Source: Methanobacteriota archaeon (lineage in GTDB: Archaea > Halobacteriota > Methanosarcinia > Methanosarcinales > Methanosarcinaceae). Taken from it: 55,961 nt of DNA. Shown here in pieces: positions 1-55,961 of the stretch. Positions within the stretch are counted from its first letter, which is position 1; every line of letters begins with the position of its first letter. Under the pieces are notes generated by a model. The model saw nothing but the letters and a program-made list of their open reading frames with translations. It did not search any database and was not told the origin of the DNA. The position numbers were made by a program, and so were the translations under genes. The stretch is from positions 1-55,961 of the forward strand of contig JASGVX010000058.1 in NCBI GenBank assembly GCA_030054735.1, in the 5' to 3' direction.

Positions 1-203
1 TTCGGCAGGTCGACATTTAATTTCTCATAATCTTTGTTGATGCCGATTTTGAAATAATACGCAGTATTTGTACGTAACTTTCAGGTTTACATATGATCAA
101 TTAATAATATCTCATACTAAACTTTTATGAAAAAATGGCCCAGTATTTATATATGTGGTGATAGTTGAACCACATGTTAACCAACTTTTAATCTCATTTC
201 TAG
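1..203 (-). repeat. Miniature element R1, truncated copy at left edge
   Basis: This matches the reverse complement of the full R1 copy at 234-511. It starts inside the terminal repeat (TTCGGCAGGTCGACATT) and ends abruptly near 203 in TCTCATTTCTAGCC, where element R2 begins. No protein is encoded. The same orientation and content recur at the right edge of the window (55759-55961). Confidence 0.8.
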
Positions 204-653
204 CCTGAGTTCCCAAAATTTAAGCGCATAAATCCTACATTCGGCAGGTCGACATTAATAATCAGAATATTTTTCTTGATGGCGTTTTATGGTATCACCT
301 GGCTAGAAATGAGATTGAGAGTTGGTTAACATGTGGCTCAACTATCACCACATATATAAACACTGGATCATTTTTTCATAAAAGTTTAGTATGAGATATT
401 ATTAATTGATCATATGTAAACCTGAAAGTTACGTACAAATACTATGTATTATTTCAAAATCGGCATCAACAAAAATTATGAAAAATTAAATGTCGACCTG
501 CCGAATGTAGGATAAATCTAATTTCACTAATCTACTATGTCAGATGATTATTATTTTTAATTAGAACTCATTATTCATGCGCTTAAGTTTAAGCACATAA
601 TAGGATATCAGAAGAACCTTATGCGCTTAAAAAGGCGGAAGTTAGGTTTCAGG
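204..653 (+). repeat. Miniature element R2, interrupted by R1
   Basis: About 166 bp of R2 (204-233 plus 518-653) is split by the R1 insertion at 234-511. The uninterrupted relative lies at 48733-48899 (167 bp). Both copies begin CCTGAGTTCCCAAAATTTAAG and end near GGAAGTTAGGTT.TCAGG. Inner inverted repeats TTAAGCGCATAA and TTATGCGCTTAA suggest a miniature inverted-repeat element. No coding capacity is seen. Confidence 0.75.
234..511 (+). mobile_element. Miniature inverted-repeat element R1, complete copy
   Basis: A 278-bp element with perfect 23-bp terminal inverted repeats that start CCTACATTCGGCAGGTCG. It is flanked by the 6-bp direct repeat ATAAAT at 228-233 and 512-517, a clear target-site duplication. 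The R2 copy at 48733 carries the site with a single ATAAAT and no insert. It encodes no transposase, so it must have been mobilised in trans. Other copies are at 1-203, 25806-25957 and 55759-55961. Confidence 0.9.
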
Positions 654-9622: not shown

Positions 9623-12148
9623 TCAGACCTTTACTTCTTCTCCTTTTAATACTGCTTCTTCACTTACCCTTACTTCTCTGGTCGTATTTCCATAGCTTAC
9701 GACATAAGCACCTGCCGGGGCAGTATCAAACTGGGTTTCCCCTGGAATAGGACCTTCGGTAGAATAAGGCACTGTAAACTCATACTTGCCTTCAGAATCT
9801 GAAGTTGTAGACTGAGAATACTCAAAAGTCCTGCCCTGGCCTGTTAAAATAGTAGTTTTTATGTTAACGGCCTCGTTGGGGGAAGCTGTTCCTGTAATTT
9901 TTGCACCTTTGACAAATTCGAAAATCTTGACAAAGCCAGTATCTACTTCAGGAATATTGCTTTTATAAAGGAAATTATAGATCTGTTTATACGTGACTTC
10001 TCCGTGGGTCTTATAAGCCCAGGTCTCATAGACAAGACGGTACTGTTTCAAACCGTTTCCATCGAGAATATGTAGCCTCGATTCCATAGAGTTAAAGTAA
10101 CGTGTGGAAGGAATGTACTGATAGCCGCTTCCTGTCCAGTAGGGCGCCATATATCCTTCGGTATCAAGAGTCCACTCAGGCATTGCACCAAAGATATCTA
10201 CAGCCATCTTCTTATCGGAAACAATGTAACGAGCTCCCATTTTATCCGGATCAGGGTGAACAGCATCGAGCACTGCAGTTGCTTCTTCTTCGGACTGGGC
10301 AGTGAAAAAGGGCGCAGCACCAGGCATGTTTGTTTCGTTAATGCTTACCCTGCGCCCTCCAATACCAGCCTGGAAAGGATTGGCGTTTGGCATCCTGTGG
10401 CCAATTGTTTCTATATAGTGCCCATAGTCCCACCAGGACATTACACCATATGCAGTATCTGGATACTGGAAAAGCTCTCCGGTTTTGGGAGCTTCATAGA
10501 TGGCATTATAATCCATCCCTGGGTCAGGGGTATTGGATTTGAGCCACAGACAAGCTTCTATCCATGTACCATCAGGATCGCTTGAACCAGTTGATTGCAT
10601 CATTGCGGCTCCATATGCTGGATAGATAAGAGTAGCTGTGATGGCCAGGATAACAATAATCTGCTCTATTCTGACAAACTTCAAGAAACCCGGAAAATCT
10701 GCAGGTGATTTTACAGTGGTTTTAAACTTCTCATTGAGCTGGTTCCATTTTGCCTTTTCAAGCAGCAGGCCTCCCAGATAAGCACTGAGAATTGCTACAT
10801 TTATAGAGTAATAATACGCAAAACGGTTCTGCCCGTAAATTGCAAAGAGCATAAAAATACTCCATATCAGAACCAGCAGTTCTTCAGGTTTTGCTTTCCT
10901 GAATACGCTCACGAGAAGAATAAGCATTCCAAGTAATGAGGCAAAAAAACCTGAGGCTGTAAAGTTACTGTAGGCTCTCGATAGAGTGAAACTACCACCA
11001 TAATAAAACATAGAGCTAACTTCACCGATTGTAGAGGGTCCACCTGTATGAACTCGAAACACGGTAGCTGGAGTGCTTAAGAGAAGGGAATAAATGGATG
11101 GTGATACAATTTTTGTTGCAAGCAGTCCCAGAACTCCGATTGCGAGTATTGCCAGAGGATAGTAGTAAGCTTTCAGCTTTCTATTATTAAATTCTCTTTC
11201 TAAAAAGCTCAAAGCGGCAAAGCCTACCATTAAGCCAAGAGAAGTTGCAACATGAAAAATTGAATAATAGTACTTTGAGAAACCCATCTCAGGGTGGACA
11301 AATGGGAGTATAAGTATTGTACTTACCAGAAATGTGCTTATACCAGTAAACCCAAGGTAATCACTTGACTCGCCACGGAAATTATCAAGGACATACTGGA
11401 ATATGGCATAAATCATAATGGCCAGTAAGAAAAGAGGAGCTCCAGGCCACGAAAGCTGATATGCCGAATACATGACACCAGCAATAACGGAATAAATCAG
11501 CGGCTCTTTAATGACAGATAGATTTTTATTAAATACATCTTCAAAATGAAGTTCTTTTTTCTTTGCAGTAATTATTGCCAGCATGAAAAACATCATGAAG
11601 AAAGTGCTGAACAAAGATTCAGCCACATGATGGTCTGTAATACCGATCAATGAACGTTGTAAAAACTGCCCGGGTGCAAAAGCGATTAAAATTGCAGCAA
11701 TTATACCTGTTTTACGGCCTCCGAGATATTTGCCGATGTAATAAACAGGGATAACTGTAAAGGCTCCTAAAACTGCAGGGAAGTAAGCTCCTATGGTATC
11801 AATCAGGTTCTGGCTTGGATTACCCAGTCCCAGAACAAGAGATGTTATGGCCATCATCTGGTCATAAAGAGGACCAAAATGGATATAGCTACCGTAAGGA
11901 TAGCAGGTCATGGGGTTGAAAAACATCCTGTTAGGGTAGTTTTCAAGGAGGACATTTAAGGTCCGCATATGGTACCAGGCGTCATTACTCATGAACCTTA
12001 CAAACCCATTGGATAAAAACACAGAATCATGAGGACGTGTTCTGATCCAGAAGGCCATAAAACCAATTATCGCAATTGCCAGAGTGTAAGGCAAGCTGGA
12101 TTTTATTTTAGACTTAAACTTTGATACAGGATGATTATCAGAATTCAT
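9623..12148 (-). CDS. aglB: Dolichyl-phosphooligosaccharide-protein glycotransferase (STT3/AglB)
   Basis: The catalytic oligosaccharyltransferase (841 aa) that moves the lipid-linked glycan to Asn in N-x-S/T sequons outside the membrane. The N-terminal half carries about 13 membrane helices. The first acidic motif is NDAWYHMR (about 55-62), the second lies in GITDHHVAES (about 172-181), and the signature WWDYGH is at 572-577 in a soluble domain. The C-terminal ~100 residues form a beta-rich domain (TGTASPNEAVNIKTT onward). AAGGGA precedes the ATG. A decayed second copy of its 5' end lies directly upstream, showing a former tandem duplication as found in some Methanosarcina genomes. It likely glycosylates S-layer proteins. 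Confidence 0.95.
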   Translation of the reverse strand: MNSDNHPVSKFKSKIKSSLPYTLAIAIIGFMAFWIRTRPHDSVFLSNGFVRFMSNDAWYHMRTLNVLLENYPNRMFFNPMTCYPYGSYIHFGPLYDQMMAITSLVLGLGNPSQNLIDTIGAYFPAVLGAFTVIPVYYIGKYLGGRKTGIIAAILIAFAPGQFLQRSLIGITDHHVAESLFSTFFMMFFMLAIITAKKKELHFEDVFNKNLSVIKEPLIYSVIAGVMYSAYQLSWPGAPLFLLAIMIYAIFQYVLDNFRGESSDYLGFTGISTFLVSTILILPFVHPEMGFSKYYYSIFHVATSLGLMVGFAALSFLEREFNNRKLKAYYYPLAILAIGVLGLLATKIVSPSIYSLLLSTPATVFRVHTGGPSTIGEVSSMFYYGGSFTLSRAYSNFTASGFFASLLGMLILLVSVFRKAKPEELLVLIWSIFMLFAIYGQNRFAYYYSINVAILSAYLGGLLLEKAKWNQLNEKFKTTVKSPADFPGFLKFVRIEQIIVILAITATLIYPAYGAAMMQSTGSSDPDGTWIEACLWLKSNTPDPGMDYNAIYEAPKTGELFQYPDTAYGVMSWWDYGHYIETIGHRMPNANPFQAGIGGRRVSINETNMPGAAPFFTAQSEEEATAVLDAVHPDPDKMGARYIVSDKKMAVDIFGAMPEWTLDTEGYMAPYWTGSGYQYIPSTRYFNSMESRLHILDGNGLKQYRLVYETWAYKTHGEVTYKQIYNFLYKSNIPEVDTGFVKIFEFVKGAKITGTASPNEAVNIKTTILTGQGRTFEYSQSTTSDSEGKYEFTVPYSTEGPIPGETQFDTAPAGAYVVSYGNTTREVRVSEEAVLKGEEVKV

Positions 12149-25805: not shown

Positions 25806-25957
25806 CCTACATTCGGCAGGTCGACATTAAAATCAGAACATTTTTCTTGATGTCGTTTTATGCTATCCCCTAGCTAGAAATGAGATTGAAAGTTGCTTAA
25901 CATGTGGCTCAACTATCACCACATATATAAATACTGGATCATTTTCTCATAAATTTT
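25806..25957 (+). repeat. Miniature element R1, truncated copy
   Basis: Starts with the R1 terminal repeat CCTACATTCGGCAGGTCG and follows the element for about 150 bp (CTAGAAATGAGATTGA, CTCAACTATCACCACATATA), then diverges after TTTTCTCATAAA. The right terminal repeat is missing. Confidence 0.8.
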
Positions 25958-26010
25958 TGAAGTGTGTAATTCTGAAACATAATTTTCAGGAGAAAAATCC
26001 TTAATGAATC

Positions 26011-48732: not shown

Positions 48733-48899
48733 CCTGAGTTCCCAAAATTTAAGCGCATAAATCTAATTTCACTAATCTACTATGTCAGATGGTTGTTATT
48801 TTTAATTAGAACTTATAATTCATGCGCTAAAGTTTAAGCACATAATAGGATATCAGAAGAACCTTATGCGCTTAAAAAGGTGGAAGTTAGGTTATCAGG
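48733..48899 (+). repeat. Miniature element R2, uninterrupted copy
   Basis: 167 bp matching 204-233 plus 518-653. It carries the site GCGCATAAATCTAATTTCAC without the R1 insertion, i.e. the empty site. Begins CCTGAGTTCCC and ends TTATCAGG. Confidence 0.85.
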
Positions 48900-55758: not shown

Positions 55759-55961
55759 CCCACATTCGGCAGGTCGACATTTAATTTTCATAATTTCTAT
55801 TGATGGTGATTTTGAAATAATATATAGTATTTGCACGTAACTTTTAGGTTTACATATAATCAATTAATAATATCTCATACGAAACTTTTATGAAAAAATG
55901 ATTCAGTATTTAGATATGTGGTGATAGTTGAACCAGATGTTAACCAACTTTTAATCTCATT
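55759..55961 (-). repeat. Miniature element R1, copy running off the right edge
   Basis: Begins CCCACATTCGGCAGGTCG and follows R1 in the same orientation as the left-edge copy (1-203) up to the last base of the window. The other end lies outside. Confidence 0.85.

Follow-up and report, generated by a model that had tools for sequence, protein, structure and literature searches.

The window analyzed here is the entire contig C58 (55,961 nucleotides) of a 2.88-Mb draft genome divided in 149 contigs. Near its left edge lies a 278-bp element, R1, whose terminal inverted repeats are perfect over 23 bp and which is flanked on both sides by ATAAAT. It interrupts a copy of a second repeat, R2. The features of the locus and the other copies found in the window are the following:

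1..203, minus strand: R1 "copy 0", with an inner end short by about 68 bp where R2 starts
204..646, plus strand: R2 copy A, a 159-bp MITE (CCTGAGTTCCC..GGAAGTTAGG) split by R1 and the duplicated target
228..233, no strand: left copy of the target duplication, ATAAAT (flank reading, empty site)
234..511, plus strand: R1, an intact MITE of 278 bp without gene (repeats, empty site, ORF list)
234..256, plus strand: left terminal inverted repeat of R1, CCTACATTCGGCAGGTCGACATT, the same sequence as at the left end of IS1634-family elements in this genome (end search)
324..336, plus strand: internal motif GGTTAACATGTGG, R1 positions 91-103 (family conservation)
411..423, plus strand: internal motif CATATGTAAACCT, R1 positions 178-190 (family conservation)
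489..511, minus strand: right terminal inverted repeat of R1, the same 23 bp (end search)
512..517, no strand: right copy of the target duplication, ATAAAT (flank reading, empty site)
about 25806..25958, plus strand: partial R1 with one intact end
48733..48891, plus strand: R2 copy B, unsplit, an empty site with one ATAAAT
55759..55961, minus strand: R1 copy ending at the contig end

A MITE inserted in another MITE

When positions 234-517 are excised, the remaining pieces (204-233 and 518-646) form a 159-bp R2 that aligns over its full length with R2 copy B, where a single ATAAAT stands at the same place. The ends, the flanks, and this realignment bear out the proposal of the initial annotation that a 278-bp element with perfect 23-bp repeats was inserted in R2, and that the same window holds the intact empty site. 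The end of R2 copy B had been placed at 48899, but the alignment gives 48891. The window ORF list contains no ORF of at least 100 aa overlapping R1. The element is an imperfect palindrome from end to end, and the 19-mer of its end has 4 occurrences in the window, where 0.04 would be expected by chance. R1 is a MITE: it is short and non-coding, and it has inverted ends, constant boundaries, a target duplication, an empty site, and dispersed copies.

The left piece of R2 adjoins R1 copy 0, which lies in the opposite orientation, resulting in the order R1/R2/R1 at this locus. The two flanks of this R2 (TTCTAG and TTTCAG) match at four of six bases, and R2 may have inserted into copy 0. The outer 6 bp of copy 0 fall past the edge of the contig, and bases 1-127 of the window are an exact reverse overlap with the start of contig C137. 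Hence, the left edge of the window is an assembly break within R1.

The R1 and R2 families

We searched the whole genome with R1, as had been suggested, and found about 40 long copies and 133 ends (at most 3 mismatches). A reversed control pattern of the end had no match across the same genome. The paired ends of full copies are 275-289 bp apart. The divergence of copies is 3-9% from the consensus and about 9% (median) between one copy and another, which indicates that most insertions are not brand new. Relatives of R1 are present in 25 of 31 Methanosarcina genomes, the best full-length ones being 70-85% identical. No exact match to the R1 end was found in viral contigs, and among named records the extended end sequence is carried only by Methanosarcina sp. 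Ant1, which supports the genus given in the initial annotation.

An exact target duplication of 5-7 bp was identified at 20 of the 43 elements checked (6 bp in twelve, 5 bp in seven, and 7 bp in one), leaving 23 without one. For comparison, randomly re-paired flanks gave a mean of 0.97 duplications and a maximum of 6 in 5000 shuffles. Within the window's genome, 18 of 25 full copies have no exact duplication, and the copies lacking it include diverged, nested, and rearranged ones. The initial annotation expected all copies to share one set of boundaries and a 6-bp duplication. The boundaries of full copies do agree and 6 bp is the commonest length, as for ATAAAT here, but the range of the family is 5-7 bp and some copies lack a 6-bp duplication. 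Two atypical copies were also observed. The full R1 at C24:1680-2188 (L114), without target duplication, is surrounded by tandem end fragments: one side has two additional tandem copies of its first 75 bp, and the other side an additional 83-bp right end. The 150-bp element at C9:132-281 (L215) has both R1 ends and corresponds to an internally deleted R1.

Apart from the ends, the best conserved part of the R1 family is a pair of inner motifs at R1 positions 91-103 and 178-190, which are inverted partners. These motifs, GGTTAAC(A/G)TGTG and CATATGTAAACC, are placed symmetrically at about 90 bp from the ends of R1, and their conservation across species nearly equals that of the ends. They might be additional, putative protein-binding sites. 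We considered remnants of IS ends as their source and rejected it: the likeness to the right end is weak (2 of 200 simulated sequences did as well), and that to the left end is not significant.

The other MITE family, R2, has about 41 matches across the window's genome and likewise shows 6-bp duplications (AATAAG, TTGTCA, TTATAT, TTTCAA, GTACTA, GTCTAA, and CATAAT). The initial annotation took R2 to be older than this R1 insertion, which holds for the pair in the window, since this R1 is younger than this R2 copy. The age order does not extend to other pairs: in the mirror case, an R2 at C37:39881-40040 lies inside an R1 copy (C37:39612-40137; L037 995-1520) with the duplication GTTAAC. With insertions of R1 into R2 in the window and of R2 into R1 in C37, neither whole family is shown to be older. 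A third short palindrome, of about 79 bp and with ends CTAGTGTCGYGTCAG, splits an R2 copy at C62:16661-16739 (L115), and seemingly the same one splits an R1 copy at C43 after position 11373 (L038).

IS1634-family elements and the ends of R1

The comparison of the R1 ends with those of full insertion sequences, also called for at the outset, led to the IS1634 family as the partner transposase. In seven places of the window's genome, a transposase gene starts behind an R1-type left end, and its reading frame matches DUF4277 and NF033559 (IS1634). Full IS elements of sister genomes measure 1719-1729 bp and have ends of the form CCTAnnTTCGGCAGGT(A/T)AAC, with the core CCTAnnTTCGGCAGGT..AC in common with R1. 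Those with both flanks readable have 6-bp duplications as a rule. Their transposases score 390-402 bits with NF033559 (cut-off of 100) and contain the domains DUF4277 and DDE_Tnp_1. The IS1634 family is characterized by an AT-rich duplication of 5-6 bp. The duplications found here are of 6 bp in the relatives, 6-7 bp in the genome's own split copies, and 5-7 bp in R1.

On the left, recent IS copies of the window's genome have the R1 end in its full 23 bp. This IS subgroup is represented in the genome by fragments, with copies split across contig ends and no full IS assembled. Breaks of this kind would be expected if the copies were nearly identical. Several R1 and IS contig ends overlap in the same way as the left edge of the window, which makes assembly the probable reason why IS copies are missing. 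An intact transposase gene is presumably present in this genome. Pairing left and right IS ends by identical flanks, with a script, gave C96-C39 (GTATAT), C24-C67 (TTAGAG), and C59-C102 (TTAGAA); a fourth pair, C99-C111, with the 7-bp flank CTATTAA, was read from the printed flanks. The right ends of all four pairs are of the canonical type, and each pair is most readily taken for a recently inserted IS copy that joins this right end to a left end of the R1 type. Hence, hybrid-ended copies appear to have transposed, which suggests that their transposase uses the R1 end. Such use would be the strongest sequence evidence that R1 is moved by the same enzyme. In genomes G010 and G011, there are about 20-30 R1-like matches, yet the IS1634 partner is present only as fragments or distant relatives; these MITEs may have outlasted their partner or may use another transposase.

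The data point very strongly to R1 being a non-autonomous cut-and-paste MITE, moved in trans by an IS1634-family DDE transposase of the same genome. Weighing against this reading are the 18 full copies with no exact duplication, the IS being assembled only in pieces, and genomes that, like G010 and G011, are rich in R1 relatives but poor in close, unbroken IS copies. The IS1634-family transposase would recognize the terminal CCTACATTCGGCAGGT..AC, excise R1, and insert it at an AT-rich site with a stagger of 5-7 bp (mostly 6), and repair of the staggered gap would leave the direct duplication. At this locus, R1 would have landed in R2, a second MITE family with an equal duplication length. The ends, duplications, empty site, and copy number were read directly from the DNA, as were the ends shared with the IS and the IS end flanked by duplications. 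The action of the IS1634 enzyme on R1 in trans is what we infer from the identity of the ends. Cut-and-paste chemistry is known for the IS1634 family, and R1 would follow it.

How the IS came to have an R1 end can be addressed by comparison. In other genomes, the left ends of the IS are GGTAAAC nearly throughout, with GGTTAAC in one diverged element, and the right ends are GGTTAAC, with GGTTGAC in one. In R1-like MITEs, both ends read GGTCGACATT. Only in the window's genome does the left end of the IS carry GGTCGACATT and a 5-base deletion, as in R1. In the best IS copies, 30 of 31 bases equal the R1 consensus, after which ordinary IS sequence resumes. In a tree of the coding starts, the IS copies of the window's genome branch beside those of G009 and G025, which have GGTAAAC left ends (support is low, 0.18, for the exact sister position and 0.90 for the group). 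The acquisition of a MITE end by the IS seems the simplest account. The retention of an ancestral end is less simple, because other lineages would then need repeated parallel change. On balance, we lean towards the hypothesis that the IS of this lineage swapped its left tip (the outer about 25-30 bp) for that of the MITE by gene conversion or recombination, and that the hybrid then multiplied.

Origin of R1 and known relatives

Could R1 have arisen from the IS of today simply by internal deletion, with both ends still shared? Its ends match those of the IS, and the stretch of the IS from the left end to the transposase start codon aligns with R1 positions 1-76 at about 75-77%. However, both ends of R1 carry GTCGACATT, whereas the right end of the IS is GTTAACG. 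Furthermore, R1 is palindromic throughout, with positions 77 to about 250 lacking clear homology to the IS, and the interior of the IS was accordingly rejected as the source of the middle of R1. We thus regard this origin as unlikely. R1 is better explained by the inverted duplication of one IS end, or by an old independent origin, than by a simple deletion. The resemblance of positions 1-76 to the left end of the IS, together with a right end that is also of the left type, suggests an inverted duplication, an origin we hold loosely because the similarity between R1 and the IS comes partly from the swapped tip.

It is very improbable that R1 is no parasite but a structured RNA or regulatory repeat that host selection maintains. 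Its fold-back is strong (z about -7.5, on both strands), its inner motifs are conserved, and it occurs across the genus, but the fold is a consequence of the palindrome, no Rfam family reaches the gathering score over R1, and the copies are scattered over variable sites, show duplications, and also occur within other repeats, as transposition would produce. In the Rfam scan of the window, one tRNA was the sole match at gathering score. Sub-threshold matches to miRNA families were discarded, as they are weak, lie across the R1/R2 junctions, and reflect the palindromy. Finally, an artefact of repeat assembly is hardly credible as the cause of the nesting, even though both edges of the window lie within R1 copies and exact 127-mers are common to contig ends, since R1 234-511 is internal to the contig, is identical to no other copy (best match of 94-95%), and has its exact empty site elsewhere in the contig.

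IS1634-linked MITEs of Methanosarcina were reported in 2013 (PMC3852290). Table 4 of that study lists a 247-bp MITE of ISMba11 in M. barkeri (23 copies, IR 20, DR 6) and a 249-bp MITE of ISMac10 in M. acetivorans (15 copies, IR 18, DR 0), both linked to IS of the IS1634 family. The ISMba11 MITE is like R1 in its genus, IS1634-family partner, multiple copies, inverted repeats of about 20 bp, and 6-bp direct repeats, and differs from it in length (247 against 278 bp) and inverted repeats (20 against 23 bp). The ISMac10 MITE shares with R1 the genus, the IS family, and the size class, but it is 249 bp long, against 278 bp, and no direct repeat was reported for it. Compared by published description only, R1 may be the ISMba11/ISMac10 MITE family in another species. 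The transposases of the family have also been described, including WP_011306730 of M. barkeri, and a peptide of the M. barkeri transposase binds the archaeal sliding clamp (PMC4549789). The Methanosarcina IS1634 elements (NF033559; DUF4277 and DDE_Tnp_1) and the relatives identified here have the transposase family, the end core, and the duplication length in common. Unlike these IS, R1 has no transposase gene, and the IS copies of the window's genome have the R1-type GTCGACATT at their left end. Hence, MITEs linked to IS1634 in Methanosarcina are already known, and the one unusual detail seems to be an IS with the end of its own MITE.

For a MITE family of high copy number found across most of Methanosarcina, these results establish the ends, the target duplication, and the enzyme that is its partner. 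They aid annotation and explain the assembly breaks at R1-type repeats. If the end swap is true, it would be a natural experiment in which an IS1634 transposase accepts the end of a MITE, and it would mean that an autonomous element can receive sequence back from its non-autonomous partner.
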